A DNA stretch of 64,000 bases, from contig MJGA01000017.1 in NCBI GenBank assembly GCA_001910725.1, positions 681,022-745,021 on the forward strand, read 5' to 3'. This document shows, piece by piece, positions 31,587 through 63,849 of this stretch. The stretch's first letter is position 1, and the number at the start of each line of letters is the position of its first letter. The position numbers and the translations under genes were made by a program. The notes beneath the pieces were generated by a model. That model was not told the origin of the DNA, searched no databases, and was given only the letters and a program-made list of their open reading frames with translations. This DNA is from Phanerodontia chrysosporium. Its lineage: Eukaryota > Basidiomycota > Agaricomycetes > Polyporales > Phanerochaetaceae.

Positions 31587-31588
31587 AA

Positions 31589-40357: not shown

Positions 40358-40380
40358 GGTGAAGAGTGCTTACTCGATTG

Positions 40381-41281: not shown

Positions 41282-41516
41282 CCGATGGCTGCTCGAGCAG
41301 CGATCGGAAACGGTCCAGTCATGGCAGGTAACACTGCGTAAAACCAGTGTTACTGTCCGATCACTGCTCGAACAGCGATCGGGTGGCGACAGCTGATGAG
41401 ATTGGTAGGACCACCCGATTGCTGTTCGAGCAGCGATCGGGAAGCACCGACAATCGAAGGCAGCAAAGGGAGCGAGTATACCCATGAGCCCCGATCGCTG
41501 CTCGAGGAGCGATCGG
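41282..41516. repeat. Palindrome array 1 (4 copies)
   Basis: 26-bp palindromes starting at 41282, 41357, 41415 and 41491. Half-site CCGATCGCTGCTC followed by its reverse complement, with small changes. The spacers are 32-50 bp. Intergenic, upstream of the gene at 42063. Confidence 0.9.
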
Positions 41517-41716
41517 AGTGAGGGCTTCATTGCACAGAAGGCACTTTGATCACACCCCATAGCAGGCAAAGTGACAACAAATTGTTATACGCAAGCGACA
41601 ACAGTCTGCATATGATGACATGCTGGTTTTCAAGTCACCAGTCCCTCAATCATGTAACCACAAACAGAGATCGTGAATAAATGTCAGAAGTGTTTATGCC
41701 TCGAATAAATCGCCCT

Positions 41717-41775
41717 CGGTTCAGGGTAGATGTTGGGTTCAGAATGGGTTAGGGGTTCAGAGGGTTCAAAGAGGA
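41717..41775 (+). repeat. Degenerate telomere-like words in the inverted repeat arm
   Basis: GGTTCAGGGTAGATG, GGGTTCAGAATGGG, TTAGGGGTTCAGAGGG in series; the mirror copy is at about 44389-44445 on the other arm. Confidence 0.45.
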
Positions 41776-42062
41776 GTTGACGAAAAGGCATTTGTGCCAC
41801 GACCAATTTTACAGATGTTTGTGTCGGTCACATAGTAGAGATCATACTATCTGGGATGTCAGAAATTGCATACGTCTGCCACAAACATATTTAAAAACAA
41901 AAACAAATGCAAAGGCGGGAATGTCCATTCCACCGCCATCAGCTGGTCGATCTATCTGCAAACAGGTGCATACAACATGTGATCAAATTCTTATCAGTAG
42001 CGATCTCGCGCAAGGGCAATGCTGAGCGACTTGAAAGACCACCACCACCATCCACCCTCGTA

Positions 42063-42718
42063 ATGTCCAGCACTACCGATTCGCGTGCCGTTCCCGAAGA
42101 GGTCGAGGATGGGAAGCATGCCTCATCTGGCGTAAGTAAGGTTTTCGCCGAGGTGAAGATGGTACTGATGAAGAGTTTGGCAGAACGAAGATGGGAGCCC
42201 AGTGCGCAACCGACAATACGTGTTTGAGGAGCATTGGAAGTTCGAGGGTTTGTCTGGGCCGTGGTACCGCGATCGAAATTGGGACAACTTCGAGGGAGAT
42301 TTCGCAGAGTACGCACGGCAGAACGATGACGCTGAGGACGTCAAGAAGGCCAGGTTCGTGCGCATACTCCACAGCGCGCGGGCGATTGCTGGAATGATCC
42401 TGAGGATGAACCTGAATATCAACGACATGTCGCGGGGTGACGAGGCCTGGACGACGATCCGTGACACCGGGGTGAGTTCGTGAACGACATTGATGCATAG
42501 TGTGAAAGCGGGCTTACTATCGAATCCAGACGTATTGTCGGGAGCATTTCGGACCGAGTCCCTGGAACATTGCGATGTATCACCTCGTGCGGAGTCATGG
42601 TCTGCACTGGCTTAGGACCTTTCAGCGCGATTTCATTTTTACTATGTCCGAGAGTTTCGACTTTGAGTTCACATTGCATCAGGAGCTTGCGCAGCGCAAG
42701 AAATGTTGCTACTTGTAA
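42063..42718 (+). CDS. Subtelomeric small protein family, member A (unknown function)
   Basis: Three exons, 42063-42131, 42184-42471 and 42530-42718, all GT-AG and all joined in phase 0, encode 181 residues. I do not recognise the family. The middle exon has the conserved core GLSG, then DNFEGDFAEYARQNDDA and ARFVRIL-SAR-IAG-ILRMNL, predicted helical. The last exon has WNIAMYHLVRSHGLHWL. The protein ends KKCCYL, a possible CaaX-like box ending in Leu. No signal peptide. Two paralogs with the same exon plan lie at 43423-44090 and 46745-47401. The promoter and intron 1 are almost identical to those of the inverted copy, but the proteins differ at over a third of positions. Confidence 0.72.
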
Positions 42719-42824
42719 CTAGTATCCCTCGTTATTGGCATGTTTGGTCGTGAAAATCTACAACTCGGGGTCAGTTATGTATGCTGCAACAATGAGATCA
42801 AACACATGAAAAGCGACTGAATCT

Positions 42825-43060
42825 CCGATGGCTGCTCGAGCAGCGATCGGACAGCGTACACTGATGAGAGGTGACAACGAATAGAACCAGTGTGGCCATC
42901 CGATTGCTGATCGAGCAGCGATCGGGTGACAACAGATAATGAGGTTGGTAAGGTCACCCGATCGCTGTTCGAGCAGCGGTCGGGGAACCACCAACAATTG
43001 AGGGCATTGGAGAGAGGCAGCATACCCATGGGCCCCGATCGCTGCTCGAGCAGCGATCGG
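42825..43060. repeat. Palindrome array 2 (4 copies)
   Basis: Palindromes starting at 42825, 42900, 42958 and 43035. Spacing and flanks match array 1 (both preceded by GCGACTGAATCT-like or GACTGAATCT sequence), so the array moved as part of a larger direct duplication (about 41.20-41.72 and 42.76-43.22 kb). Intergenic. Confidence 0.9.
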
Positions 43061-43422
43061 AGAGAGGCATTCATTGTGCAGAAGGCACTTTGATCGCTCC
43101 CCATAGCAGGCACAGTAACAACCACTTATCACACGCAAGCCACAACAGTCTTCATATTACGACATGCTAGGTTTCAAGTTACGGGTGCCTCAGTTATTTA
43201 ACAACAAACAGAGATGGTGAATCAGTGTCAGTAGTATGCAAATGTGACTGCTGGAAGACAACAAGTCGCCTTTCATCGTCGATGTTAGAATACAAGCAGT
43301 TTATACGAATGTGACCTTATCTCAAAGCCCACCATAAATCACACAAATTATTTCTCTTCCTCGGGATAGACTGGATACATTTGAAACCGATTTGTACAGC
43401 AGATAACGCACATAGCAATGAG
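43061..43422. other. Intergenic, between the two facing family members
   Basis: Contains a diverged copy of 41560-41700 (CAACAGTCT, ATCAGTGTCAG-like words) and the 3' UTRs of the two converging genes. No ORF supported. Confidence 0.5.
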
Positions 43423-44090
43423 TTATTCATAGACGCAGATGCACCTTTCGATCTGAGAGAGCTCCTGGTGGATTGAGTCCTCAAACGGGAGCGCGTAGTC
43501 ACCGGACCACTCATACTTGAACTCGCCGTTGAACATCAAAAGCATCCGCAGACCATGACTCCACACGAGGTGACGCATGGCAATTTCCCATGCAGTCTCT
43601 CCGTATTTCTGGATACACTCCGGCTGGGTTCAACAGTGAGCTCGCTGTCGCACTATGCATCATGATCGTCCATCAACTCACCGCGAAATCGCGGAGGGCG
43701 GTCCATGCCGGGTCGCCGGAAGTCATTCCGTTGATATCGAGGTTCATCCTCAGGATCTGGCCAGCAATCGACCGCGCGCTGGTGAGTATGCGCACGAACC
43801 TGGCCCTCTTGACGTCCCGGGCATCATCGTTTTGCCGAGCGTACTCTGCGAAATCCCCCTCGAAGTTGTCCCGATCTCGTTCGTGGTACTTCTCCCCAGA
43901 CAAACCATCGAAGTCCCAATATCGCTCAACCGCGTATTCTACCTCGCGGAGCATCCTCCCACGTCGATCCTGCCAAACTCTTCATCAGTACCCTCTTCAG
44001 TTCAGCGAAAACCTTACTTACATGAGATGAGGCACGCTCGCCATCGTCGACCTCTTCGGTCACGGCACGAGAAGGAGCGTTTGTGGACAT
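43423..44090 (-). CDS. Subtelomeric small protein family, member B (unknown function)
   Basis: Exons 44090-44022, 43969-43682 and 43623-43423 encode 185 residues. The first two exons have exactly the lengths of member A (69 and 288 nt) and the same phases. The core DNFEGDFAEYARQNDDA is identical; the surrounding sequence is diverged (MSTNAPSRAVTEEVDDGE against MSSTTDSRAVPEEVEDGK; YGETAWEIAMRHLVWSHGL against FGPSPWNIAMYHLVRSHGL). It ends CICVYE and lacks the CCYL end of member A. Convergent with member A inside the inverted repeat. Function unknown. Confidence 0.72.
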
Positions 44091-45060
44091 TATGATGAGG
44101 GGGTGGTGGTGGTGGTTGTCTTTCAAGTCGCTCAGCACTGCCCTTGCGCGAGATCGCTACTGATAAGAATTTGATCACATGTTGTATGCACCTGTTTGCA
44201 GATAGATCGACCAGCTGATGGCGGTGGAATGGACATTCCCGCCTTTGCATTTGTTTTTGTTTTTAAATATGTTTGTGGCAGACGTATGCAATGTCTGACA
44301 TCCCAGATAGTATGATCTCTACTATGTGACCGACACAAACATCTGTAAAATTGGTCGTGGCACAAATGCCTTTTCGTCAACTCCTCTTTGAACCCTCTGA
44401 ACCCCTAACCCATTCTGAACCCAACATCTACCCTGAACCGAGGGCGATTTATTCGAGGCATAAACACTTCTGACATTTATTCACGATCTCTGTTTGTGGT
44501 TACATGATTGAGGGACTGGTGACTTGAAAACCAGCCTGTCATGATATGCAGACTGTTGTCGCTTGCGTATGACAATTTGTTGTCACTTTGCCTGCTATGG
44601 GGTGTGATCGAAGTGCCTTCTGTGCAATGAAGCCCTCACTCCGATCGCTCCTCGAGCAGCGATCGGGGCTCATGGGTATACTCGCTCCCTTTGCTGCCTT
44701 TGATTGTCGGTGCTTCCCGATCGCTGCTCGAACAGCAATCGGGTGGTCCTACCAATCTCATCAGCTGTCGCCACCTGATCGCTGTTCGAGCAGTGATCGG
44801 GCGGTAACACTGGTTCTACACAGTGTTAGCTGCCATGACTGGACCGTTTCCGATCGCTGCTCGAGCAGCCATCGGAGACTCAGTCACGTTTCATACGGTC
44901 GATCTCATCTTTGTAGCATAAATAATTTGTATTTTCCGCTTACGTAATTCGACATAGACTGAAATGTGTCGAGGATACCCCCTTTTACTTCGCAAAAAAT
45001 AAAAGTCAAAGCCTGGAGGGTGACCGAGGCGCTGAGGTACCGGTAAAAAACCGCTATATT
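43969..45060. repeat. Right arm of the large inverted repeat
   Basis: Reverse-complement partner of 41088-42183. Identity is highest over the promoter (44097-44390) and falls in the palindrome array and in the distal part (44900-45060). Confidence 0.88.
44641..44875. repeat. Palindrome array 3 (4 copies)
   Basis: Copies starting at 44641, 44717, 44775 and 44850; mirror image of array 1 on the other arm, with different point changes. Intergenic. Confidence 0.9.
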
Positions 45061-45450
45061 GAAGAGTTTATTAATTGAATTCAATGGAGGGAATGGATGG
45101 AAGTTGCGGCTTCCCCGGTCGGCTGACACCAGAAGGGCGGGCTGTCTGCATGAATGCTAAATAACAAAATTGGGCCTTGTTTAAACGAGAGGAGGGTCAG
45201 GATGCGCAGAATGAGATGGGACGGTCAGAATCTGTCAATCCGTGAAGCAATCAAACCGTGCGTGTTCCGCTGTCGCGTCTTCCTGGCGTGTGATAAATGG
45301 AGTGTCATGTGAGAAATTCATATGAGTGGACAGGGCCCAAGATTAGATTGTACATGCTTGGCGCTCTTTCTTTATTGTACTGTTACTGTGGATGGTAGGC
45401 GACAGGAAGCTCTCCGTTCGCCCCCTCCCCCTTCTCTTTCACGGACCACG
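45061..45450. other. Intergenic upstream of the SAM-like gene
   Basis: About 390 bp holding the promoter of the next gene; no repeat copy of the palindrome and no ORF supported. Confidence 0.5.
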
Positions 45451-46412
45451 ATGATTCCGGTTCCAAAGTCGACATCGAAGTTCCGCGGGCTCACTTCGAT
45501 TGAAGGAATGACGGCGGAAGAGAGGAGGGAACTGATCGTGCGTTGGTGAAGGAACTTGGAGGGTCGATTGAAAAGCTAATTGCAATATTGTTGTTGAATG
45601 TGCAGAAGGTGGCGAGGGAGGAGTATCCACGGTTCATCCCTTTGGAGAGGCGTTGGGGTGATCGGTCTGCAGCAGAATACGAGTCACTGCGGAACAAAGT
45701 GAGTGCTGAGTAGGCTGAATTGGAAGGCAAAGATAGAAATATAGCGAGGTGCTGATGTACGATATAGGTGATGGAGAGATGCCCGTTCCTTGGACGGTAC
45801 GAGGAGGGGTGGCCGCTGGAGGTGTATCTACGAGCACACGTGACGAGCCAGCAGTGGCGGGCTGAACAATCGTTGAAGAAAAAAGGCAAGGGGCGCAAGG
45901 CGAAAGAGAGTGAGGAGGAGAATGAAGAACCTATGGATGAGGACGAGGAGGAGGAGGAGGACGAGGAGGAGGAGAAGAACAAGGAGGAGGACGAGGAGGA
46001 GAAGAACGAGGAGGAGGAGGAGGAGGAGGAGGAGGACGAGGACGAGGACGAGGAAGATGAACTTGTTGAGGAGGAGGACGAGCAGGCTGAGGGAAGCAAG
46101 GATGGCAAGGTGATGGAGACGATGCAGGCTGATGAGCCTGAGGAGGTCGGGAGTAGCATGGCTACTCAGGATGCGAGCGCTCCAGTCGAGTCAGGTGGGG
46201 CTGTCCTGGAGTTTCTCCGAAACCTGCAGCTCCCGCTTGACACGTACCTCGATCGGTTCCTGGAGGCAGGTATTCGGACGGAGGAGGATTTGCGCGCGGT
46301 GGCGAATCTAGGTGAGGATAATTATTTGAAGATGCTCCGTCATGATATTGGGATGACGCTTCTCGACTCCCGCCGTGTTGAGTCTCGGTTGCGGGAATTG
46401 TATCTTCACTAA
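45451..46412 (+). CDS. Acidic protein with C-terminal SAM-like domain (unknown function)
   Basis: Exons 45451-45537, 45606-45698 and 45768-46412 encode about 274 residues. It starts MIPVPKSTSKFRGLTSIEGM and has a short conserved-looking region with WRAEQSLKKKGKGRKAKESE. Residues about 110-165 are almost entirely Glu and Asp with Lys. The last 65 residues (VLEFLRNLQLPLDTYLDRFL, then LRAVANLGEDNYLKML, RRVESRLRELYLH) resemble a SAM domain: five-helix pattern with an LxxLxxLGE-like core. A nuclear or scaffolding role would fit but is not shown. I do not recognise an orthologous family. Confidence 0.65.
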
Positions 46413-46499
46413 GTGCCATGTAATGTAACAATAGTTGTCTGTTTGTAGTAGATATTGTTGGCCAACTTACGAGAGTTTACTGTTGAACGGTGCGAGACT

Positions 46500-46584
46500 C
46501 CGATGGCTGCTCGAGTAGCGATCGGGGGATGGCGGACATTGAGATTGGCGCTAAGTCCCCGATCGCTGTTCGAGCAGCGATCGG
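46500..46584. repeat. Palindrome array 4 (2 copies)
   Basis: Copies starting at 46500 and 46559, upstream of family member C. The first is the CCGATGGCTGCTC variant also seen first in arrays 1 and 2. Confidence 0.88.
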
Positions 46585-46744
46585 AGAGGCACTACCGTTC
46601 AGTTCAAGACAGTGCGCAGGAACGATAAACACGTGCTTCGGCTATCAAGCGTGGGAACAATTAGTAGATTACAAATCGTCACATCGCCCGTTCGCTGTCG
46701 AACGCAGCTTCAAGAGTACCACCACCTCATCGAAGTTAGTTCAT

Positions 46745-47401
46745 ATGGCACAGAACAACCAAGGCGAGGGATTGAACGGAGGAGAGCCCGAGGCGAGGAG
46801 AGCGGTGAGCCATTAAGCTAAATGAGGTTATTGAGGTTAACGTGGTAGGATAGGCTTTGGGGGAGGAGGCAGCGATGTCCAACGATGGGAGGGAATCGGC
46901 CTTTGACGGGCTATCAGGTGAAGCTTATGGAGAGGAAGCATATGACCTGGCGGACGGTATAAGCGAGGACAACATGGTTGGGAACGCCGAGGAACGAGAA
47001 GTGGCTTTGAAGAAGGCGAGGCTGAGGCGAATCGTGTCAAGTGCTTGGCAGATTACGTCGAGGTTGCTAGAGCTGGAGAAGTTGATCCCTGATATGCAGG
47101 CAGGAGATCTGACTTGGTTGGTAGTCCAACATGAAATCGTAAGTGACTGGAGGACTGAACGTCATTGATGGAGGACTGACGGAGCGGTGGTTGTGGACAG
47201 AGGCAGTCCATTGCTCGATACGGAATGCATGCGTGGCAGCTGGCTGCCTCTCATGCAATCGAGTTTCATGGACTGGAGCGATTGGGCCAGTTCCCAGCGG
47301 CTTTCTACTTCGATCCTGAGGTGGGAATTGTTCATGGATACCGAAGGATCGCGCGAACGCTTATGGAACGGGATGACCGCTGCTACGAACGTCGAGAGTG
47401 A
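46745..47401 (+). CDS. Subtelomeric small protein family, member C (unknown function)
   Basis: Exons 46745-46804, 46854-47138 and 47201-47401 encode 181 residues, with the same three-exon plan and phases as members A and B. The core is recognisable but far more diverged: AFDGLSGEAYGEEAYDL, then KKARLRRIVSSAWQITSRLL and YGMHAWQLAASHAIEFHGL. The third exon has exactly the length of member B's (201 nt). The C terminus is YERRE, with no CaaX-like end. It is preceded by two palindromes, as members A and B are preceded by four. Function unknown; probable paralog by shared gene structure. Confidence 0.62.
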
Positions 47402-48265
47402 ATTTAATTATGGGTATCCATCATCGAAACTCAGTAATAAATTTCATTGTGTTCTATTTTATATCGGACGAAGAGGAAGACATGAGACGAGATTCCAAAT
47501 TTGTGAAGAAAAGGACGGGGTTGGCTAAGGCCTTCAGACTGCAGGCCAGTGTGAATGGGATGGCCTGACAGGATGTGAAGCGTGATACAGGCGCCCGAGC
47601 AGAGCTTGCAAGTTAAGACCAAAGTCAAAATAAACCACTCACAGAAATGGCCATGTTTGCAGACGGAGCGTTTGCAGAGATAGAATATTCTCCCGATCGC
47701 TGGACGAGTAGCGATCGGAGTGGCACAACGAGAATGGATGCAATCATCCGATCGCTACTCGACCAGCGATCGGAAAAGAGACACCATATTGGCGCAGGAT
47801 TGAATTGAGAGGTGTCACCGACCGCTGGTCGAGGAGCGATCGGGGAGTCAGGCAACATGCCCAAATTCCTGCGCAATCCGATCGCTGCTCGACCAGCGGT
47901 CGGAAGAGCGAGGTGAATTTGATGGGACAGCGTAGTGACAGCCAAACATGCTGCGAAATTGCATTCTCGCCATTCCTGAGTGCTCCCGATCGCTCCTCGA
48001 GCAGCCATCGGGAAGACACAAAAAGTTATGTCCACATTGAGCCTTATCAAATAAATTAATTAGTTGTGTTAATTCCAAATCTGGACGGCGTGCAATCGAT
48101 CGCATGCTGATCGAGGCGTTTTTTACTCACTCAACCACCACTCGGTCGAGAAACTCGCGAACAACAGCAACAGCAACAGCAACAACAACAGCAACAACAA
48201 CAGTAAGTGGGACATTGTCATTAGGGTGCAGAGCAAGTCTGACAGGGAAGGTCGCCCTAGGAAAC
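47402..48265. other. Intergenic with palindrome array 5 and a 5' leader
   Basis: 47402-47690 holds no supported gene. The palindromes follow at 47693-48011. A (CAACAG)n-like leader at about 48160-48204 ends in ACA|GTAAGT, and CCCTAG at 48255-48260 sits just before the ATG at 48266, so a 5' UTR intron is likely. Confidence 0.5.
47693..48011. repeat. Palindrome array 5 (5 copies)
   Basis: Copies starting at 47693, 47748, 47818, 47878 and 47986. Several have asymmetric centres (GGACGAGT, CTCGACCAG), so these look older. Intergenic, upstream of the large gene at 48266. Confidence 0.88.
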
Positions 48266-51200
48266 ATGTCTGAAAAATCGAAATCTGGTACACGGAAGGC
48301 GAGGTCGTCTCTCGCAGCTGCACCTGAGGCCGGGTCGTCGGCGACAGGGCGCGGCAGCAACGTGGCGGGAGATCGCCGTGGAGGATCGGAAGGCAAAGGA
48401 AAAGGGAAGGGAAAAGGCAAGAACGTGACGATCGACGAAACTACGGTGCGCTTGATACGTCATGGGAACTCCTGTTGGGAGTTCCCTGCAGGGTAAAATG
48501 AAGTGCTGACGTGATGAACAGAAGCAAAAGGTTGACGTGGAGATCCAGAAAAAGACAAGCGAGCTGGAGAGGACGCACACAGAGCGGCTGCAGCAGTTGT
48601 CCAAGGCGCGAAGAAGGCACTGCTCGGACATGCGCGGATGAACTTGTCAGAAGGCGCGTCGGTCGAGCTCGAACACGGTATCTACAACACGCGCGCGCTC
48701 CTGAAGCAGGCTATGCAGAATCTGAAGAACGGCATGATCGAGGCTGGCATCCGGCGCTGCGACGCGACGTCGGTGATTCTGATTCCGGTCCACGTCAAGA
48801 CGCAGCTGAAGCCCGACGCGGTCGAGCGGCTGAGCAAGTGCCGGGACCTCGACCGACTGCGCGAGCTGTCGATCTCAGAGGCAAGCGAAGAAGAGTGGCC
48901 GACGGTCGAGTCGCTCGTCAAGGAGGACGTCAAGATGTTGCCCTCTTGTGGTGGACAGCACCGTCAGGCGGCGCTGCGTGCGGTTCTCAAAACTGCGGAG
49001 ACGCAGATCGCGGCGGCGATGCAACGCTACGCGACGATCGAGGCCGATCTGGGGAGCCTTCAGGACCAGGCTTTGAAAGAAGACCTCGCGAGCGAGAAGA
49101 TCGGCGCGGAGCAGCCGTCGGCACGGCGCAAGATCTTCCTGGAGGAGGAGAGAGAGAAACTGCTCATGTCGATGGCGAAGTGGGAGAGGATCCGGAAGGA
49201 TGGCGGGCTCTGGACTGTGGCTTTGTATGACGCTGGTGAGTGCGAGGCTCGAGTGGAACGCGTCTCGAGGGAGCTGAAAGTTGTGCGCAACAGATTTATT
49301 GGCTATGGACGATTTGTACGCTATGGCAAGGAACGAGGCGGACCCCAAATATGTGGAATCGAACGAGGAGTTCTTGGACATGCTGATGGTACAGGTGGCG
49401 CAGATGCGGGACCGCTACATCTACAGCGAAGGCGAGGACGGCGAGGCGGCGGCGGCGGCGGCGATGGCTACTGCGGCAAGCGAACTGGAGGGTGTGCCGC
49501 ACGCGGTCCAAGAAAGCAATCGGCTCAAGGAGAGGGCGCGGCTTGCGATGGAGGAGGTGAAGACACTCGAGGCGAAGATCAAGGCTGCGTCGAAGGCGAG
49601 GCAAGACGTGTCGGCGTTGAAGCAGGAGCTCGCGGCGGCGAAGGTCGAGGCTTCGGAGGCGAAGACTGCTGCGAACGAGGCAGTCGCGGCAGCTGAAGCA
49701 GCGCGGGTGAAGGAGACGGAGGCCGCAATGAAGGAGAGAAACACGAAGGCGCGGGGCGTCATGGACACGCTGAAGCAGAAGGCGAACGACAGGGCTGGCA
49801 ATAAACCGGGCCCTGTCATAGGCCTGGTACGTTGCGAGCATGCGGTCGCGTTCTTGATCCGTGTGGTGCGTGGACGCCGTGCGCTGGCTCGGCATCCGCT
49901 GTGGAAGGTCCCGGAGTTGTTCGCGCATCTGCTTGGAACGTCTGGAGCGGTGAGTTTGGGAATTTTTTCTTTTCGTGCGAACGAACTGAGATAATGTATT
50001 TGTGCGGGCAGATTACATCGGAAATAGTGGACACGCTATGGGAGCGGATGGACGCTATGGGGCGAATGGTGGCGGAGTGCGGCTCGCAGCAGGAGGTGAG
50101 GACGTGGGTGCAGAGCCTCGTCGAGAAGAGCGACACGCTGGACGAGAAGGCGTTGAAGCAGAACGAGGAGGAGCAGCGTGGATGCTGGCTGCGGTACCTG
50201 GGGAACCCTCGCCAGAAGCCGTCGTACGACATCCTCGAGGACCTGCTGCCGGTGATCGACGAGGCGTACCTGGAGGCGTTCCCTCGTACATCGGACGGCG
50301 AGCCGAGCGACGCGATCATGGCGCTGACGGCGGATGGAAGTCAATCGCTGGGCGAGGAGAAGATGGTGATGAAGGCGATGGATCACTACCGGAACACGCT
50401 GTTGGACAAGATCGAGAAGGTGGTCGAGAGGTTCGGCAAGAAGGAAACGCGATACTCGGAGTCGCAGAAGGCTTTGTGGCGACAGGTCGCGGCGAAGGTT
50501 CACGTCTTCACGACGCTGGCTGGGTTTCCCGAAAGCTACGTGCCGCGTATGCCTCTGCCGTCGTACAGCTTCATCCAGGACTTGATGCGTCGGCTCGATC
50601 TGAGCCAAAGCGGTATCGCGATGGTGAGTACTGCTCAACACTTCGTATCCACGTTCACCACACATTCCCCTTCCCCGACGGCTCCTCGAGCAGCGGTCGG
50701 GGCGAGGCACAGGTGCTCGTTCCCCGACCGGTCTTCGAGCAGCGGTCGGGGCGAGGGGCAGGTGCTCGTTCCCCGACCGCTCCTCGAGGAGAGGTCGGGG
50801 CGAGGTGCAGGTGCTCGTTTCCCGACCGCTCTTCGACCAGCGGTCGGGGCGAGGCGTGCGTACTCGTTCCCCGACAGCTCCTCGAGCAGCGGTCGGGGCG
50901 AGGCATGCGTACTCGTTCCCCGACCGCTCCTCGAGCACCTACACCTCGCCCCGACCGCTCCTCGAGGAGCGGTCGGGGAGCTCACTTACTATGCACAATC
51001 CTCAGTCTACCTCGACCCAACACTAATCAATGTCCCACAGGCGTGTTCGATGATTGACCCCAGTATCCCCACCCTCGTCAGGAAGTCCAACAGCTCACCT
51101 CTCGTCGCCCGCGATGTCTCGGATGCTGCCCGACGCGCGCTCATGAATCCCAATAGCGGCATCGAGTTTGGGTCAGACGAACGCGCTCGGAAAGAGGTTT

Positions 51201-54200
51201 GTACATAATCCGTCATACCGTACAACGGCTCACTTCATGTTCACAGCTACTCTGGACGCTATTCAACGCCTGCCCCGTCACCTTGTACGAGCTCACCTTC
51301 TTGGCAGACAAGATGCCACCGCGTCTCGTCGACAGGAAGGTCCAGGTCAATGTCCTCATGGATCGTTGGACTCTCAGCCCCCACATCGACCTCAACGAAG
51401 CCAAACAGTTGTACGCCCGCCGTCGCGCCGATACCTCCCTCCAGAACCAGAAATATATGAAGGCTATCAAAACTCTCTTCGGCATCAACAAACGAGGCGC
51501 CTCGAAGGTAGAAGATCTCGGAATCGTTCCCGACAAAGACGTCGTCGACCCGGATGCCGACTACGTCCCTGGCACAGATGCCATCGTAGCCGACAACGGC
51601 GAGGACTTCGACGACGGCGACGAGATCGATCCCAGCGACGATGACAACGACGACGGCGACAACGACAACGACAACGACGACGAGGGTGACGACGACCGCG
51701 ACGACGAGAACGACGATGACGATGCGCTGGACGAACACCATACCACCGAGAAGGACGAGAACGACATGGATGAAGACGACGACGACAGCGACGAGGAGCC
51801 CGCCCACAAGCAGAAGCAGAAGAAGTCCGCGCTCAAATCCAGGCCCAAAAAGACCACTGCGACCAGGGGGCCGAGGCCGTCCACCTCGCGTGCGAAGGGC
51901 AAGGCACGTGCGACAGTCTTGGATGAACCCGTCGAGACAGACGTCAGCAAGGGCGTCAAGGGCAAGGGCAAGGCCAAGGGCAAGGGCAAGGGCAAGGAAG
52001 TCAAGGCCGGAAAAAGCAAGGGCACGGGCAAGGGCAAGGGCAAGGACAAGGACAAGGACCCCGCTCCCGTTGCCGACTCCGGTTTCGTCGACATTTCTCC
52101 CTACCGCGAATGGCTGAACCCGACTAACTTCCCCCTCCTCGAGGTAGTTCAGAATATCGTCGACGACCTCCAGTTCTGCAAGCCCATCATCGACTCATTC
52201 GTCGTAGGCAAGACGACAGAGCGTCGTTGGAAAGACTCCCACCTCCGCGAAAACGTTCCCTCATCCATCCCCGCGCAGTGGCTGCTGCGCATTCACTACA
52301 ACTATCCCGCCATCGGCAGCAACTCAACGCGCGTCATCGTCCGTGACCTTCTCATCGCCCTGCACTTCGAATACGCATACTGGACGGTCGTGCTCTCGAA
52401 AATCAAGGACATGATCGTTTTCCGCAAGACCCGCGACATCCTCCAGGACGTGCTCGACAAGTACTGCCGCCCATCCCTCACACGCGACCAGCTCCTCCTC
52501 GTCAGTCAGCGCGAATGGCAGTGGCCAGACGGATACCGCGTCACTTTGAACGACGCCGATTACGATTGGTGCGCCCCATCCGCAAGCGACACGAAGTTCT
52601 GGCTTGTCCGCCGCGCGACGATCGCCAGCGAGAAGCAGAAGGTCCTCGCGCCCATTCTCAAGGCCCTTGGGCTCGCATCTGCGTCGGCATTCAACCCCGA
52701 GACCTCTCAGGTCATGCCTGGGTCCGTCTCACAGTCCGTCTTCTTCGCTGCGCAAGGATTCCTCACGGTGAGAATCCTGAAGCCGTCTCGCCGCGTTACT
52801 TGCTCACCCTTCGTACAGGCACTCATGGGTAACATGCAGCACAAGTACGAGATCGAGAAGATCAGGCTCCAGTTGCGGAACCAGCACCCGGAGAGGGAGA
52901 CGCGCGAAGTCCTCGAGAAGAGGCTCGAGGAGGAACGGTACTTCGACCCGTCGAAGTACTGGAACATGTATCCGCTGCCGACTGAAGGGATTCGAACCGT
53001 GGTTGACTACGACAAGGCATCACCCTGGAACCTCAACGCGCTGACCTCCTTCGATCCAGATGGCCCACCTCGCGTTCCGTTGACGAGGACGCCTCCGGCC
53101 AACTCGGGATCAGGCTCGGCTGGCAAGGGCGCGACTTCGGACGCGATCGAGATCGACAACGACGAGCTCGTCATCGTACCCAAGTCGTTCGAGGTCTATG
53201 TCGGTCAAAAGCGCACGTATACCCCACCCTCAGCTCAGGAAGTTGCGGCAACGACGTCTCCGGAAGCAGCTCCCTCGACGCCCAAGAAGCGGAAACACAA
53301 CGTGACGTCTTCGCCGCAGAGCGGTTCCACCGGCGAGACCCCCTCGACGAGGTTGGCGAGGAGTGGTTCCGTGGTTCGGTCACCTGTGAAGAAGAAGGCC
53401 CGCCACGACGAGGGTGAGGTCTCGGCCGTGGACGAAGACGTCGAGATGGACGAGGCCGAGGAGCCTTCGACCAATCTTGCGTCGACCTCCCCTTCCAAGC
53501 CCAAGCCCCGCCCTCGGCGAGCTGCGTCAAAAACGGCGCAGTACACCATGCCCGGTGAAGACTGGGGCTCGGGCTCCTCGGATGAATACGCTGACGATGG
53601 GTCGAGCAGCGAGCTGCCCACCTCTGACGAGGGAGTCTCCGAGTCCGACGACCAGCTTTCGGACGACCCCGAGCTGCGGCAGTACGTCGCCGAGGCACTC
53701 GCGAAGAAGAAGGGAAAGGAGTTGGCTCTGATGCACGCTGCGGCTGCGTCTCAAGCTACGCAAGACGATCTCCATCGTCGGGCTGAGGCTCAAGAACGGG
53801 AACGCCAGCTGCGCAGGGAGAAGCGGCTCTCACGTCGAAGGGGACAGGAGCAGGTCGCGGCGCGAAATGTCTCTGGTGAGTTCGCCCGCTTCGATGTACC
53901 CCTCCTTCGATCGCTGCTCGAGCAGCGATCGGGTGCTGCACGCTAGCCCCGACCGCTGTTCGAAGAGCGATCGGGTGCTTCCAGCTTCCCCCGACCGCTC
54001 TTCGAAGAGCGATCGGGTGGTGTGCGCCGTCCCCGACTGCTCTTCGAGCAGCGATCGGATGTTGCATAGGTCTTTCCCGACCGCTGTTCGAAGAGCGATC
54101 GGGTTGCGTAGGCTTTATCCGATCGCTCCTCGAACAGCGGTCGGATTGTGTACTCCTTTCCCGACTGCTCCTCGAGCAGCGATCGGATAACGTACGAGTT

Positions 54201-55208
54201 CTCAATCTTCTGTCGAGAACCAATGTTTCCCCGATCGCTACTCGAACAGCCATCGGGAATCTGCGCTCTTCTCGTCTTCACGTATTGTAGACTAATTGCT
54301 TCCATTCACCAGATGACGTCGACATGCTCAACTCCGAGGAGGAGAGGGAGGTGCTGCTCGACCCTCATGCCAATGACGAGCACGACGACCCCGACGTCCA
54401 CGGCGATACCGAGGACGAGGACGAGGACGAGCACCAGGACCATGACCAGGACGGCAGCGGCTCCGATAGCGATGGCAGACCATCAGCTCCTGAAGGCTCG
54501 CAGTCTCCTTCCCCAGAGCCCGACCAATCGCTCGCATACGACAACCCTGCCGACATCGCTGCTTCGTCACAGCTCACGTTGCCCCCGTCACAGCCCCCGT
54601 CCTCGTCGATCACCGATGCAACCCCGTCATTCCCTGGCGTCGTCCGCCACAGTCGCACGAGCTCGGAGTCCAGTCTGTCGTCCCTTCCGCCCACTCGCCG
54701 TTCATCGTCCCTCGCACCTCCCGCACCCGAGTCATCGCTCCATCCCCCTCCGCCCTCACAGCCCAGACGCTACCCTCGCCATGGCCAAGAGTTGTTCGTC
54801 CCGCCCCCAACCGAAGAGTTCGACCGCCAGTACGCTGCCCAGCGCGAACTTGAGCTCGACGCCGCGCGTTTCGACGAACTGCCCCAATCGTCGGCCCCCT
54901 CCTTCTCACAAGGCCCCACCCCCGCCATGTCGCATCGCCCCTCCGCTGCCACCAGATCATCGACGCCCGCCGCTCCCTCACCTCACACTCCCTCCCGCAC
55001 GCAACCCACCTCCCCCGCATTCGCACAAACCTCTCAACCCTCACACGATGACGACGTCGAAATGCACCACGAGGAGGAAGAGTCACGCTCGTCGCCTGTC
55101 GAAGACTTCCCACCAGGTCCAACCACCAGGCAGAGGGCGTCGCGCGCCCCGATCACCATGGAACCTCTTCGCCCCTCGTCATCTCGTACCAAGCATCAGA
55201 GGCGCTAA
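48266..55208 (+). CDS. Very large subtelomeric protein 1 (about 1900 residues, unknown function)
   Basis: Exons 48266-48445, 48522 or 48560 to 49235, 49294-49949, 50012-50623, 51041-51196, 51247-52767, 52819-53875 and 54313-55208; from the third exon on all joins are in phase. I do not recognise the protein. The first third is helical and Ala/Glu/Lys-rich, probably coiled-coil (EEVKTLEAKIKAASKARQDV). The middle has ITSEIVDTLWERMDAMGRM, SFIQDLMRRLDLSQSGIAM and YELTFLADKMPPRLVDRKV. An Asp/Glu-rich region (about 51600-51800) and a Lys-Gly repeat (51950-52060) follow, then a Ser/Pro/Asp-rich tail. Exon 2 is uncertain: the best coiled-coil frame from 48522 stops at 48638, and the downstream frame needs a start at 48560 or a one-base change. 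Introns 4 (50624-51040) and 7 (53876-54312) are long because they contain palindrome arrays. Confidence 0.62.
50675..50976. repeat. Palindrome array 6 (7 copies, 49-bp period) inside an intron
   Basis: Copies starting at 50675, 50724, 50773, 50822, 50871, 50920 (right half lost) and 50951. The first six starts are exactly 49 bp apart: 26 bp palindrome plus a 23-bp spacer of the form GGCGAGG...CTCGTTCC that varies by a few bases. Uses the CCGACCGCT / AGCGGTCGG version of the arms. Confidence 0.92.
53907..54256. repeat. Palindrome array 7 (8 copies, about 42-bp period) inside an intron
   Basis: Copies starting at 53907, 53949, 53991, 54033, 54077, 54119, 54161 and 54231. Spacers are 16-18 bp (44 bp before the last) and vary in sequence more than in array 6. 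Centres TTCGAA, TTCGAG and CTCGAG all occur. This is the most regular repeat-spacer array in the window. Confidence 0.92.
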
Positions 55209-55773
55209 ATTTCACTCGTCCCTCCACTCCCTCCCGTCACCGTCACCGTCCCCCGCCCTCCATGTCCCATGAGTACATCGCGCGTTCGTCATCATCGTCC
55301 ATAGATTACATGTACTTTTACTGCACTATTTCGATCGTATAATATCATTCTCGCTTTCTGATCATTTTTCTCCCTCAAAACACTCGTGCTGTTTCCGCAA
55401 CGCTCAGGTAAGCCACTTCGTTCCCTTAGCCACTACCCACAAATTCGCAACATCCTCCCTGGGCCTTTAGATATAGCACCGGTCTCTGTCTCCGCTCTCT
55501 CTCTTCCCTTCCCACCCTCCCCTCCCCCATGACATGAGGTACACCACACTAACGCGTTTTACACCTCGCTTACAACCATATCGAGTCACATCAATCGATA
55601 TCGCTCGGTTTACATGTTTTTCCCCATCATCAACGGATTATCGCGCAGCAATTTTCTGGTTTTTAATCCTTGCCAAAGTCATTTCACCCGCGCACACCCC
55701 CCCTCCCCTCCTCCCTCTCATCACCTCCTTTGAAATCGCACATCTCTTCCTTGCGCAGACGACACAACACAAT
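55209..55773. other. Intergenic between the two large genes
   Basis: About 565 bp, pyrimidine-rich near 55480-55530 and 55695-55735, presumably 3' UTR of the first gene and promoter of the second. No palindrome copy. Confidence 0.5.
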
Positions 55774-58700
55774 ATGCCTCCTGTCAAACCCACCTCTGTG
55801 ACCCACAGGCAACTCGCTCCTGATCGACGCTCATCCCAAGTCCAGCAGGCGCTCGCAATGGACGCCATGCTTGCAGATCCGTACGTTTTCCTCTCTATGC
55901 TCTTCGACATCCATCGCTAACTCTGTCCAATCGACTTCCTCATTCATAGCTCTTCTCGTCCTGTCAATGAAGTAGAGGTCGACCTCGCTGCACCTCCCTT
56001 CGCCTTTCTCGCAAACGACGCCGTCCCTCAGAACGACGTCAACAACTTCTTGCGTTTGTACGATCGCTCGCACGACGATCGCGACTTCCATGACTCCCGT
56101 CGCAAAGAAGTACTGCTATCCAAGCTCCGTTACATCTACAAAAAGGGCACCGTATCTGACAAGATACGCCTCCTCACCTCACGCCACAAGGTCGTCATCG
56201 ACGATCACTACATCCGCCCCGCGAGCCATGCTTCCATCGCTCTCGATATGTCGTCTGGCACCATGGACTTCAAATTCTGCGTCCCTCGTCAGCCCGGCTT
56301 CGGCGCAGTTATTCCAAACACTATCGCCGGACTTCATTGGTGTTGGAAGCTGTTCATCACCCGTGCTCGCTTCTTCGCAAACAAGCATGCCATGCTCGGC
56401 TTCGACCCCGTCGGCTCCATGCTTTACATCGGCACCGCAAACGACGAGGATCTCTGGCTCGTCTTCGCTGCTAACGACTTCTTTCGCGACGACCCCCAAA
56501 TCGATTACAAACCTCCGGGCACCATCTCTGGCGATCCCAGGCTCTCACATATACACTGGTACTACGCATGCATCTGGCTCGCTTTCGTTATGCGCAAGCG
56601 CGGAATCTCAGACGTTACTTGTAGCGATGAGATGTATTGGAACCTGGACGATCCCTCCTTCGATTCTCTCAAGGAAATAACCAACATCCTGTGAGTACAT
56701 TGTCCTTGTCTTTGTCTTTGCCATTGTCGTCGTCCGTTTCCACCTGCTGCTCTTGCGGCCTTATGATGACGTTGACTTTGTCAGCCACGTCATGCCCACT
56801 CATGGCGAACCCCGATCGCTCTTCGAGCAGCGATCGGTGCAACTCGGTCCCTCGACCCCTCGTCATCGCCGACACCCCGATCGCTGCTCGAGCAGCGGTC
56901 GGAGTTACCCCCCTCATTCTCGGTCCCTCGACCCCTCGTCGTCGCCGACACCCCGATCGCTGCTCGAGCAGCCGTCGGGGTCACCCACCTCGTTTCAACG
57001 TGGGGTCCTCCGTGCCACTTTCACCGACCGCTGCTCGAACAGCGATCGGGGAGCCCCTCCCCTGAACTCTCTTCACCTCCGTCTCCAGCACTATTTCACT
57101 GACATAAATATTTCCTCCAGTGAGGGCGGTCGAACCCTACAGCTTGATGCTGTCGTCAAACTTCATGATCACTGGAACAACGACTATGAAGACTTCCGAC
57201 ACAGACTGCCCGAGAACGTCAGCGACTGGTTCGCGAAGCGCAAGCCTATGGTCATCTGCTCTCGCTACGGTCAGAACAAACCCATCAGCACTGCTCCCGA
57301 CACACTCGAAGCTTACGCACAAGAGTGGCGGACCCTCCACAAGTTCGAGAACATCAAGTTTCTCTCACTCGCTCTCTCCACCGATGTCAGGTCAGTTATT
57401 CCACTACCACACCCCACACCCCACACCCCACACCCCACACCCCACCCCCTACACCCCACACGCCATTCTATTCCCACTTTCCTCCATACATCCAATCCAT
57501 CACCTGTTCTAACCGCCACCTCCCCTCAGAGCCGACTTCGTCGACACCTACCATGCCATCCCCGACGAAGAGATCTACCAAGATCACCCAGAGCTGTACA
57601 CCCATTGGGACCCCGAGGTTCGCCAACATCTAGAGCTCGACGAGCTCCTCGCGCTCCCTCTCGCAGATGAGGACAACAACCAAATTCACATCTACGACGC
57701 TGACGGCTACCTCGTTCCTCGCACCGTTTCTGTCCCTGCTTCCCCCGCTGCCATGCTCGTCAACTTCAAACGAATCGACGACCTTTTCATCAGCTCCGCC
57801 CAGCACACATCGCGTTCCTACACCCATGACGACGGCGAAATCAACTCAGGCCGTCCCAGCCTCTACACAATCTATCCTCAAGCTTGCCTCCATCACCTCG
57901 GCCACCTCCAGGCCACTGTCCTCCCGCGCCCTCATCGTAACTTCGTCAGCAACCTGAACAGGGCCATCGGACTCACTCATTGGGTCGACGAGGGCGAGTT
58001 CGGAGACTCCAGCGATGACGACGAGCTCGAGCGCCGTAGCCAGGCAAGCCTTCATCCTCACCAGGAAAAGATCACCGAGTCCCCCATTACTACCAGTGCT
58101 CTTCAAATTTACGCCCTTCCCATGCATCGCAGCAGACGCACCGCCAAACACCACGACGTTCAACGCGGTCAAATAACCGCTTCCCTCGCCTACCATTACG
58201 TCACGTCCACTCCCGAGACCAAGACCCTCAATAACATCAAGGATCAGTTCAAGGCCGGTCTTCCGCATCAACGCTTCAAAGAGAAGATCAACACCCCGGA
58301 ATTGCCTCGAGAGTTGCGCATCGAAGTTGTCTATCACTTTGACATGTGCAAGCTTGAGGACAAGTATTACGACGGCGCGTAAGTTCCCTCTCACCTACTC
58401 GTTCCTCACCCACATACTCACCCCACCTCCAACCCTTCTCTCCCCCATTTCTCACGTCGCTACATCCCTCAGCGTATTCTTCAAGGAAATTGTCTCACCC
58501 CTCATCCGCTCCTGGTCGCACGGCAGCCTGAGAGAAGATATTATCCCACATTTCACAGCTATCGACACCAAGGTGAGTATCAACCTTTTGCTGCCGTATT
58601 CCCGAACCATCGTTCATAGAGTCCCTTCATCGACCTCAATCGTACGCTAGGTCTACCCCCAGCTTTACAACTGGACAACTCAGGGCTTGACCACTCTGCT

Positions 58701-61208
58701 CGAGCACCTTCACGACCAAGGCACCATGACCGAGGGCGCCGGTACTCATGTTCCATCACATTTCATCGACCTTGTCGCCAATCTAGAGCGCGCCCTCAGT
58801 TACTGCCATACCGGCATCGCACGCGTCATGACTCGAAGTACCATGGACCCCCTCTGGCTGTCCACAAGCCTACTCATCGACGGTATGCCATGTCTGAACC
58901 CAGACATTGTCTCCATTACTTTCCCAAACGGCCTACCCAAAGTCAACGTTTCCCTCCACAATTGGCCTTGCGAAGACAACGGAATAGTCCCAAAGTCTGC
59001 CGCCCGCGCAGGTCTGATCTATCACTATGGCGTCGATTTATGTGCCGTGAGTAAACATTTTGTTCTCTCCTCTTCACCGTCGAATCGCACTTCAGTTCTC
59101 TCCAATCACTTTATTTCCGTCGTCGTGTTCTCGTTCATTGTTTCCCACTGGTGTCCACCGATCGCTGCTCGAGGAGCGGTCGGTTTCTCCCCTTGCTTTC
59201 GCCCCCTTACACCTTCGTTCCCGATCGCTCTTCGAGAAGCGATCGGCTCTCCTCTCTCTCTCTCTCTCTCTCTCCCTACCCCACGCCTCTCCGTTTCCGA
59301 TCCCTGCTCGAGCAGCGGTCGGATTTCCCCTCCCCTCACGCACCCTCCCTCGTTTCCGATCCCTGCTCGAGCAGCGGTCGGGTTACCCTCCCTCTCGACG
59401 GAGTCGGTAACATGTACTACATTCCTACCCCCTCGTACAATTCGCATGGCTTTCAACCTCCTCCTGGATGGATACTGATTGTCTATCATCCTCCAGCGTT
59501 TTCAAGCCACCTTCTCCCTCGAAATCCTTAGCGCGAGATCCGCTTTCAATGCGAGTGATCCATCAAAGACTGTCTCATCGGCAACGCGCGCATTCGACCT
59601 CTGCGTCGCCTTTTGGCGCGTGTTCGAGCAGGAGACAGTTGCTTGGCTCCTCAACGAACTCGAGCAAGACATTCAGAGGCAATCTCGCTCCCACCAAGCC
59701 CTCGGTGACAACGATATCCCCCCCGAAGATCGCAAAGAAGCTCTTCGTTTTCTCTCCCAAAATTGCGAACATCCCCTTTCCCTCGCTGGAAGCGCTCACC
59801 TCTTGAACGTCGTCGCAACAACAAACGACGCTCGTCTCGACTACTTGCCCGCTAGTTCCACCCTCCCTCAAACCACACGTTTCGAACTCTGTTGGAATCT
59901 CATCAACAGTTGCCTCGATCACGACAAGCCCCCCACCGCTCCGTTCACCTCCACCTCCTTCGCATACCGCCTCCTCCTTCGCCTCTATCACTCTCTTCCA
60001 TCTCTCTTCCCCGACTTCTTTCGTGACCCCACAAATAACAAAAAGGCTATCTGTCACCTTCTTCAATCCTCTCTTTTCGAAACCGGCATCGTCTATCTCC
60101 CTTTCTTCGACACCCCGTCCGGCAACCGCGGCATGTGGTCCAGACAGAAGCCCAGTTGCACTCACTTCGTCCGTCTCCTCGATCCCCTTCAGCCCCGACC
60201 GTCCTCCTCCCATCCTCTTCGAAGACGCGTCGATGAAGTCGTCGAGATCTCTGACAACGATGACGATCTACCCTCCTCCTCTCAGTCCATTCGTCGCGCT
60301 CGCAAACGCGCCCGCCAGATTCTCCTCTCCGACCCCGAAGCGCCTTGGTCTGCCCTCGGCTGGCCTCTCTCTCAGCTCGACACCTATTCCAACAAGTCTG
60401 TCGTTCCCATCGAGTTCACCTACAAGAACGCCGACTTGCCTGCTGACAAGTCCTGCCCTGCCGACCCGAACAAACGTGAGATATGGCTCATCTATGACTG
60501 GGTCTTCAAGAACTTTTCAATGAACGTCAAGTGTCACCGCCTCGCCATGTTCATCGCCATCATAGTCACTCGCCTGCTTCCCCAGATCTCCATCTCTGTC
60601 GATGGCGTCGTTCTGCCTCCAGCCCTCGCCTCTGACCCAGAGGCAATTCGAACTCACCTCCGGACCCATTGTCCACTCTTCGTTCAGCCATCAAGAGGCG
60701 GTCGTTCCAAAGCCCATCCCTTCATCACAGCTATCCCAACCATCGCCATCTCCATGTGGTCCGAACACTCCCCTCTCCGCCAATTGTTCCGGCCCAAGGC
60801 TGACGGCAGCTCGGGTCGCCGAGGCCCTGGTAAAACTTGGACCAACAAGCACAGTACGTACAGCATCCCTCCTTTGTTGCTATCCGCGTTTCAATAAGAT
60901 AAATGTATCGAATTGACTCTTCCGTCCCTTCTAACCCAGGTATGAAAGGGTTGAACCCCTGGTTCATGACCTTTATCAACGTCTTCAAGCCTACGCACGC
61001 CATTTACACTTCCCCCCCTCACTTCGGGACAACCTACGTCGTACCTACCAGTGATGAGCTCGACGAGCTTCACGATCAGTTTTTCGACACATTGCTCTCC
61101 GACGACCCATACAAGTTCTACCACGCTGTTCGGTTGATCGTTGGACACGATCTCGCCAAGGAGTTGGGTGAATCGCATGGATACAAAACCCCTTCATGGG
61201 CCCGTTGA
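55774..61208 (+). CDS. Very large subtelomeric protein 2 (about 1362 residues, unknown function)
   Basis: Exons 55774-55880, 55950-56690, 57121-57390, 57530-58378, 58473-58572, 58651-59046, 59497-60853 and 60940-61208 join in phase without a stop. No family recognised. It has no signal peptide or membrane segment. Distinct stretches include IALDMSSGTMDFKFCVPRQP and IHWYYACIWLAFVMRKRGIS (exon 2), HDHWNNDYEDFRHRLPENV (exon 3), LYTIYPQACLHHLGHLQ (exon 4) and WLIYDWVFKNFSMNVKCHRL (exon 7). A basic patch after an acidic one (VVEISDNDDDLPSSSQ, RRARKRARQIL) could be a nuclear signal. Introns 2 (430 bp) and 6 (450 bp) each hold four palindromes; the others are 69-139 bp. It follows large protein 1 on the same strand. 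Confidence 0.68.
56812..57049. repeat. Palindrome array 8 (4 copies) inside an intron
   Basis: Copies starting at 56812, 56877, 56953 and 57024. Spacers include repeated CGGTCCCTCGACCCCTCGTC. Lies wholly in intron 2 of the gene at 55774. Confidence 0.9.
57406..57467 (+). repeat. (CCCCACA)n microsatellite in an intron
   Basis: About eight units of ACCCCAC with small variations, inside the 139-bp intron between 57390 and 57530. It is C-rich on the coding strand but is not the CCCTAAA telomere word. Confidence 0.8.
59158..59381. repeat. Palindrome array 9 (4 copies) inside an intron
   Basis: Copies starting at 59158, 59221, 59297 and 59356, with a (TC)n run at about 59247-59274 between the second and third. 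The last two share the CCGATCCCTGCTC left arm. Lies in intron 6 of the gene at 55774. Confidence 0.9.
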
Positions 61209-61377
61209 ACCGGCATCGTGACTTGTGGCCGATCATGTGTGGGTAGGGATAGTTTTGAGAGTTAAATGGTTGCTTGCTTGGTTGTTCGGTTAGAAAGTTT
61301 TGAATGCATTCATTGTTTGTGCTTTTGCCTCAACGGCGTCCTCGTCGTCGTGATCTCCCATGCTCTCTTTGCTCCTT
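61209..61377. other. 3' flank of large protein 2 gene
   Basis: Presumed 3' UTR and spacer; no other feature seen. Confidence 0.5.
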
Positions 61378-61760
61378 TCGATCGCTCCTCGAGCAGCGAT
61401 CGGAAGAATCGCAGGTAAATGCGTGTCGCTCTTGTTGTGCGCTCGAACTCCGATCGCTCCTCGAGCAGCGATCGGGAGAATCGCAAGTAAATACGTGTCA
61501 ACTTCGTTTTGCAGTATAAATCCGATCGCTCTTCGAGCAGCGATCGGATAATCAAAGGTAAATACGTGTCAACTTCGTTTTGCAGTATAAATCCGATCGC
61601 TCTTCGAGCAGCGATCGGATAATCAAAGGTAAATACGTGTCAACTTCGTTTTGAAGTATAAATCCGATCGCTCTTCGAGCAGCGATCGGATAATCAAAGG
61701 TAAATACATGTCAACATCATTTTGAGGTGCAAATCCGATCGCGCTTCCAACAGCGATCGG
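61378..61760. repeat. Palindrome array 10 (6 copies, 71-72-bp period), distal-most
   Basis: Copies starting at 61378, 61450, 61522, 61593, 61664 and 61735. Spacers of about 45 bp share AATCAAAGGTAAATACGTG and TCAACTTCGTTTTG; the three inner units are nearly identical. Intergenic, 3' of the last gene. No palindrome copies occur beyond this point. Confidence 0.92.
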
Positions 61761-63842: not shown

Positions 63843-63849
63843 TGTTGGG

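Follow-up and report, generated by a model that had tools for sequence, protein, structure and literature searches.

What maintains a short palindrome in the non-coding DNA of a fungal chromosome end, and what allows its sequence to change there? The question is raised by a 64,000-nucleotide stretch of Phanerodontia chrysosporium DNA (the window: positions 681,022 to 745,021 of contig MJGA01000017.1, assembly GCA_001910725.1), which takes up the right-hand end of contig C55 (745 kb) in a genome of 39.0 Mb and 145 contigs. The window ends in a cassette of small genes (A, B and D), an acidic gene (C) and two large orphan genes (1 and 2), whose introns and intergenic spaces carry arrays of a 26-bp near-palindrome that we refer to as T1. 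This one genome was analysed, and the labels C1-C117 denote its contigs. Beyond what an earlier note on this DNA had described, the analysis reveals lineage-specific arrays of 26-bp palindromes at recurring places in orphan subtelomeric genes. We consider it probable, on balance, that the arrays are clusters of putative binding sites at which a dimeric protein, specific for their sequence, marks the cassette's non-coding DNA.

The T1 consensus, CCGATCGCTGCTCGAGCAGCGATCGG, is matched at up to five mismatches by 47 copies in the window, all between positions 41,282 and 61,760 and grouped into ten arrays, together with a truncated 48th copy near 50,920, inside array 6 (Table 1). The next-best sites in this range have at least eight mismatches, and the best outside it have ten. 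The earlier note had counted by eye about 48 copies in ten arrays between 41.28 and 61.76 kb, none of them in the first 41 kb or the last 2 kb and all of them between genes or in introns, and each of these points was borne out. By the gene models of the present analysis, 22 of the 47 copies lie in four introns and 25 are intergenic; the exons of genes 1 and 2, 9,880 bp in all, contain none, and neither do the approximate spans of genes A-D. A coding repeat was dismissed on this count, 0/47 copies being in modelled exons, and a CRISPR-like array was discounted because the repeats are imperfect and the contig is nuclear and eukaryotic. The arrays fill exactly those four of the 14 introns of genes 1 and 2 that exceed 140 bp (417-450 bp in length, the other ten being 50-139 bp).

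The copies are far from uniformly conserved along their length. Positions 1-4, 8-9, 12-15, 18-19 and 23-26 are near-invariant (pattern CCGA...CT..TCGA..AG...TCGG), positions 5-7 and 10-11 and their mirror images vary, and the exact core is found in 41 of the 47 window copies. Two comparisons between arrays that are about 80% alike (a and b), scored at core positions chosen from these same copies, gave 0/64 and 1/63 differences in the core, 7/40 at the variable positions in both cases, and 39/131 and 40/132 in the spacers. Seven near-identical block pairs (comparisons d-j), when pooled, gave 12/1118 differences in the core, 160/2656 in the spacers and 195/14971 in exons; the comparisons share the window copy and are not independent, and a further one between non-homologous stretches (k) was excluded. 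The T1 core evolves about as slowly as exons while the spacers drift, a pattern that points to a dimeric DNA-binding protein.

Might the arrays instead be a functionless satellite that is homogenised among subtelomeres by gene conversion and unequal exchange? The T1 arrays sit in a repeated block that is ~93-98% identical between the window end and two copies on contig C44, and their tandem units expand and contract. A second palindrome type, T2 (described below), is nearly uniform, with 50 of its 68 sites listed and all of these exact. When 13 copies of array 2 are aligned, the contrast is slight (palindrome 0.8%, spacer 1.8%, flank 5.4%), which tells against selected sites but can be traced to the youth of the copies and the conservation of the whole array there. 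Such a satellite should carry its spacers along, however, whereas in two comparisons the spacers differ by 30% and the core by 0-1.6%; it also leaves the recurrence of arrays in the same introns unexplained, and the spacers of a gene 1 paralog on C44 are unrelated to those of the window. We rejected a simple satellite on the core-spacer contrast, small as this is among young copies, and on the unrelated paralog spacers, and regard an origin of this kind as distinctly unlikely.

The symmetry of the repeat suggests another alternative, in which selection acts on a folded structure, either a hairpin in unspliced transcripts or a cruciform in DNA. As RNA, the T1 consensus folds at -20.4 kcal/mol and T2 at -19.3, with 0/200 shuffles as good in either case, and all 50 listed T2 sites are perfect palindromes. 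The half-sites of T1, on the other hand, show no covariation: at positions 5, 6, 7, 10 and 11 of 65 copies from 14 arrays, 220/325 pairs match, against a shuffle mean of 227.1, so that the two halves vary independently and matched halves are not in excess. Exact palindromes make up 2/47 of the window copies and 22/254 of the copies in fetched DNA, many of which are mutual duplicates; the earlier note's impression that many copies stay palindromic, and that symmetry is the property being kept, did not survive these counts. C-C oppositions at positions 10/17 are common. Half-site differences compatible with G-U pairing number 35 against 30 incompatible ones at position 5 and 50 against 34 at position 11 (on the written strand of 254 copies unsorted by gene strand, with many duplicates). 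Two common T1 variants fold less well (-14.3 and -10.8), and T1 occurs in intergenic DNA as well as in introns. The absent covariation, the C-C oppositions and the weaker-folding variants led us to reject a hairpin or cruciform as the selected feature, and we rate this account as improbable. Because the half-sites are independent, it is a two-fold symmetric pattern of contacts, and not the fold of T1, that appears to be conserved; constraint, symmetry and half-site independence together are our grounds for proposing dimeric binding.

A third alternative would make the 26-mer a small, self-inserting mobile element comparable to the selfish palindromes of organelles. Its copies are many and confined to non-coding DNA, and a similar motif stands in the unrelated spacers of the C44 paralog. 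Yet wherever near-identical arrays were compared, copy number changes by units of palindrome plus spacer and not by the bare 26-mer, and no empty 26-mer site was seen between these arrays; array positions also recur across deep paralogs, and the listed sites are clustered in arrays. A mobile 26-mer or miniature inverted-repeat transposable element was set aside on the unit changes and the missing empty sites, and strikes us as highly improbable. Among the roles that the earlier note had put forward, the dimeric-protein site thus fits best, while the hairpin or cruciform and the mobile palindrome are the ones that gave way.

The history of the palindromes can be followed in paralogs of both large genes. 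At ~866.6-872.2 kb on C44 stands a diverged copy of gene 1, whose identity to that of the window is 42, 48, 54, 59 and 63% over the five longer matched stretches and 85% over one exon of 53 residues. In intron 4 of this copy, four T1-type palindromes follow one another at 68-69 bp, as against six in the window that are mostly 49 bp apart, and their spacers have no resemblance to the window spacers of that intron; the upstream region of the copy has three further T1-type palindromes. Deeper relatives of gene 1 (30-34% identity) are found on C85, C116, C63, C117 and C82, and of gene 2 (37-39%) on C82 and C116. Six of their introns were read, namely intron 4 of gene 1 on C116, C85, C117 and C82 and intron 2 of gene 2 on C82 and C116. 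None contains T1, the best sites having 10-11 mismatches, and all contain other palindromes. T2, CCGCGCGTGTTTCGAAACACGCGCGG, is present in gene 1 intron 4 as six copies on C116, three on C85 (one of them changed) and four on C117, and in gene 2 intron 2 of C116 as five copies, one strongly decayed. On C82, gene 1 intron 4 has three copies like CCGCGAGTGCGTCGAAACATTCGCGG (T3-like), 52-53 bp apart, and gene 2 intron 2 has three copies like the summary sequence CCGCGAGTGTTCCCAGACACTCGCGG, 55 bp apart. All types are 26 bp long with CCG/CGG ends (one C82 copy ends in CAG), and all but the CCGCGAGTGTTCCCAGACACTCGCGG type have a TCG centre. Palindrome length, ends and intron position persist, and the interior switches between lineages within one genome; genes 1 and 2 follow the palindrome type in the lineages examined.

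Genome-wide, T2 has 68 sites at up to two mismatches, of which the 50 listed are all exact perfect palindromes, and T3 has 86-87 sites at up to three mismatches; the reversed-pattern control gave 0 for either. T2 sites on C116 lie at ~1.7-2.0, 4.8-5.3, 8.3-8.7 and 11.5-11.7 kb, a rhythm of ~3 kb like that of the window cassette. To judge from position beyond the introns read, the successive T2 sites on C116 and C63, likewise at steps of ~3 kb, would correspond first to intron 2 of gene 2, then to introns 7 and 4 of gene 1, and last to the upstream region of gene 1. A T3 variant, CCGCGAGTGTGTCGAGACACTCGCGG, occurs on C79, C117, C21, C73 and C82, where its copies are mostly 52 bp apart and near matches to A/B-type genes; its asymmetric centre is found in both orientations.

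The shared frame of these types could mean that a single regulator of the host reads all of them, the interiors being lineage drift and the arrays ordinary enhancers or silencers of a subtelomeric gene family. The common 26-bp length, the CCG/CGG ends and the TCG centre in all but one type are in keeping with such a regulator, as is the occurrence of gene A both beside T1 and near T3. It fits poorly with the fact that T1 positions 8-9 and 18-19 hardly vary and that T2 interiors are almost invariant, an invariance within types from which it seems that the interior matters within a lineage. A common regulator is in our judgement unlikely. Gene A itself is multi-copy: there are 64 matches to its 85-residue exon, 21 of them full-length and 98-100% identical. 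Behind one copy, 100% identical and with its end in C82:35080-35640, come T3-type palindromes at 52-bp intervals; the DNA identity of this copy to the window stops ~20 bp past the stop codon, with the 3' flank and array unrelated. Since gene A occurs in different cassette contexts, it is unlikely to set the palindrome type.

The same kind of search places T1 in the genome as a whole. The earlier note had proposed a genome-wide search for the 26-mer at three mismatches, and this gave 477 sites, the listed ones near contig ends, as against 0 for the reversed-pattern control. The 16-base core, CCGANNNCTNNTCGANNAGNNNTCGG, has 489 exact matches and again 0 for its reversed control, where ~0.01 would be expected by chance (our arithmetic from base composition). 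Positions were taken from part of the matches (100 rows in each of three listings, one of which had 109 in all, and all 44 in another). Among these, every site on a contig longer than 130 kb and of known length (C33, C44, C55, C57, C60, C63, C64, C71, C77, C82, C85 and C88) lies within ~84 kb of a contig end, the furthest being at 358.9-364.2 kb of the 442-kb contig C63; the remaining listed sites are on short contigs or contigs without a known length, and contig ends are not all telomeres. T1 is absent from ten of 20 fetched stretches, including the first 10 kb of C1, C2, C44 and C55 as well as the final, telomeric 10 kb of C63. The restriction of T1 to subtelomeres that the earlier note had claimed is thus well supported, though not proven, with the qualification that some ends are without T1. 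Nor has a name for the family emerged: Rfam holds no match at the gathering score, an exact scan with the degenerate T1 pattern gave 0 matches in viral contigs and 0 in bacterial and archaeal contigs, and no published description was found in the open-licence literature, as judged by titles and the opening lines of abstracts. To that extent the earlier note's suspicion that no described family has this half-site has held.

How might such arrays work? A dimeric protein probably reads the T1-type sites. Whether the reader differs by lineage and has changed together with its sites seems to us an evenly balanced matter; if it did, the recognised interior would have changed with the reader while the frame of length, ends and centre was retained. 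A reader matched to its lineage would most simply come from the cassette itself, as the product of gene 1 or gene 2, and dense binding in introns and flanks could set the chromatin state of the cassette. The direction of the effect might be to open the cassette against silencing, in the manner of the plant protein VANC, which removes DNA methylation from its targets, or to nucleate silencing, in the manner of PfSIP2 of Plasmodium; we rate anti-silencing as less likely than not. It is conceivable, if less likely than not, that every cassette lineage codes for a dimeric protein of its own, specific for the 26-bp palindrome that is spread through the introns and flanks of that lineage. This would amount to a diversifying self-recognition by which lineages living in one genome control only their own copies, most likely through de-silencing or drive, and would be an independent fungal counterpart of VANC built from orphan genes.

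A number of observations sit badly with these proposals. The core is not absolute, since six of the 47 window copies depart from it, as do three of the four intron copies of the C44 paralog, at one central base (its three upstream copies are on-core). Besides the selection of core positions from the copies that were scored, the contrast is smaller over all 26 positions (7/104 and 8/103 against 39/131 and 40/132 in the spacers), a closer pair of arrays (a2) shows 1/64 differences in the core, 0/40 at variable positions and 6/131 in the spacer, and in the pooled close comparisons the variable positions of the palindrome change as fast as the spacers (47/700 against 160/2656). The copies in gene 2 of C82 are palindromic only in part, with 4, 4 and 6 of 13 pairs unmatched. 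Nor is palindrome type tied to every gene of the cassette, for an identical A exon stands beside T1 in the window and near T3 on C82. Types can also be neighbours, with a perfect T1 site ~1 kb from a T2 array on C117, and the T3 relic array of the window, which lies outside the 41,282-61,760 range of the earlier note, is not beside a copy of gene 1 or 2. As for the reader, the cassette yielded no DNA-binding domain: neither gene 2 nor the exons of A, B and D had any Pfam match with E up to 5, and gene 1 had only insignificant ones (HTH_37, E 0.18; V_ATPase_I, E 0.012, far below its cut-off). The zinc-cluster pattern is absent from the block, none of the 29 Zn_clus matches of the genome is inside a cassette copy, scans for simple motifs gave no convincing candidate, and a structure prediction for gene 2 exon 7 was unusable (mean predicted local distance difference test score, pLDDT, 37.9).

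The switched interiors, at a fixed length, fixed ends and a fixed intron position, would be a natural record of change in protein-DNA specificity. If each lineage has its own reader, the cassettes would furnish matched sets of sites and proteins for studying changes in recognition by dimers, together with a fungal model of the ways in which repeated subtelomeric genes escape or recruit silencing.

The features of the cassette are collected in Table 1. The gene 1 copy of the window has a frame break near 48.6 kb, in exon 2 of our gene model. Protein searches found no homologue at E<=0.001 for gene 2 (7,992 scored candidates) or for residues 1-780 of the part of gene 1 that was used (7,988 scored candidates). 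The CpG figures are 0.81 and 0.93 for the non-coding DNA of the cassette, 1.11-1.30 for other classes and 1.54 for the palindromes, a contrast too weak to build on.

Table 1. Palindrome arrays, cassette genes and telomeric repeats of the window (positions are those of the 64,000-nucleotide stretch)
Feature	Position	Strand	Description
T1 array 1	41282..41516	.	4 copies, spacing 75/58/76; ~0.55 kb upstream of gene A
T1 array 2	42825..43060	.	4 copies between convergent genes A and B; one perfect palindrome (43035)
T1 array 3	44641..44875	.	4 copies upstream of gene B; forms an inverted repeat with array 1
T1 array 4	46500..46584	.	2 copies immediately downstream of gene C
T1 array 5	47693..48011	.	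5 copies upstream of gene 1
T1 array 6	50675..50976	.	6 copies, mostly 49-bp period; gene 1 intron 4 (50624-51040)
T1 array 7	53907..54256	.	8 copies, mostly 42-bp period; gene 1 intron 7 (53876-54312)
T1 array 8	56812..57049	.	4 copies; gene 2 intron 2 (56691-57120)
T1 array 9	59158..59381	.	4 copies; gene 2 intron 6 (59047-59496)
T1 array 10	61378..61760	.	6 copies, 71-72 bp period; downstream of gene 2, ~2.2 kb from telomeric end
T3 relic array	32770..33433	.	type CCGCGAGTGTTTCGTGACACTCGCGG; five copies, ~143-bp period, and one decayed copy
Gene A	42063..42718	+	small multi-copy gene; approximate ends
Gene B	43430..44090	-	~70% identical to A over compared exon, inverted; approximate ends
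Gene C	45451..46412	+	acidic protein, C-terminal sub-threshold SAM-like match; approximate start
Gene D	46745..47401	+	~35% identical to A over 75 residues; approximate ends
Gene 1	48266..55208	+	8 exons; large orphan protein that has acidic as well as lysine-rich regions
Gene 2	55774..61207	+	8 exons; one open 1362-aa orphan protein
Telomeric repeats	63847..64000	+	TTTAGGG repeats, closing the contig

On its inner side the cassette is preceded by other repeated DNA. A retroelement at 35660-41087, with a 1266-aa open reading frame (36557-40357) and a sub-threshold RVT_1 match, lies beside short TTTAGGG-like runs; an element of the same type caps a broken gene 1 paralog on C44 (~866.6 kb), and another lies just inside the telomere on C63. 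Elements of this type may target or heal chromosome ends. TTAGGG is the usual telomere repeat of agaricomycetes, while that of the window is TTTAGGG. Two Ty3/gypsy-type elements with a chromodomain (16452-32097; ~7.5 kb aligned, 8.1 kb apart, 93% alike) separate the cassette from conserved genes at 1-13600, which from their reading frames we take to be of Sel1-type, WDR48-like and VPS11-like kinds. For a ubiquitin hydrolase gene at 8.5-10.1 kb the closest match (97%) is from a metagenome, and the closest from a named species (67%) is in Phanerochaete sordida.

Several known systems resemble the T1 arrays in part. Sites of Gal4-type zinc-cluster proteins consist of paired CCG/CGG triplets at a fixed distance, with dimer symmetry; their known spacings are shorter than that of T1. 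They differ in that no zinc cluster was found in the cassette and that the T1 interior is constrained as well; a zinc-cluster protein encoded by the cassette was rejected as a candidate, the pattern being absent from the block and 0/29 Zn_clus matches lying in cassette copies. The selfish palindromes of Volvox carteri, as presented in the excerpted text of their source, are likewise short and abundant in non-coding DNA, but they are organellar, whereas T1 is nuclear, forms arrays at recurring positions and changes in copy number together with its spacer (PMC2670323).

The nearest subtelomeric parallel is the SPE2 motif of Plasmodium, which is bound by PfSIP2 and has 777 predicted sites, 94% of them in subtelomeric domains (PMC2829057, in excerpt). 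SPE2 sites resemble T1 in being clustered, largely at chromosome ends, beside a subtelomeric gene family, but one named protein is assigned to them and no lineage switch of the motif appears in the excerpts of that source (PMC2829057). SPE2 is the bipartite site of an AP2-domain protein, whereas T1 is a 26-bp near-palindrome that is also intronic; no search was made for AP2 genes.

More of the present observations are shared with the VANDAL transposons of Arabidopsis, as far as the excerpted portions of two sources describe them. In VANDAL21, the protein VANC binds a nine-base motif in tandem repeats that occupy introns of VANC21 and VANB21 and the region upstream of VANA21, and related VANDAL elements have other motifs (PMC5735166). 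As with T1, these are short motifs in tandem arrays, in introns and upstream of element genes, whose units are gained and lost, and the motif differs between related families and is rare in other elements (PMC5735166, PMC10398659). In the cassette, too, the arrays stand in introns and spare the exons (22 intronic and 0 exonic of 47 copies), and the motif differs by lineage, T1, T2 and T3-like palindromes occupying homologous introns. The differences are plain: the VANC motif has nine bases in one orientation and belongs to plant transposons with a transposase, VANA, and a binding protein, VANC (DUF1985), whereas T1 sites are 26-bp near-palindromes of fungal subtelomeres, and no relative of the VANC or VANA proteins was found in the parts scanned. 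Specifically, no Pfam match to DUF1985 or VANA was obtained in genes 1 and 2, the C-terminal part of C and the exons of A, B and D, the first exon of each of A, B, D and gene 1 lying outside the scan. Since neither defining protein turned up in the parts covered, we draw an analogy and do not propose membership; as an analogy, the VANDAL/VANC system is the closest working parallel for the way in which palindrome arrays might mark, lineage by lineage, the non-coding parts of a repeated subtelomeric cassette.

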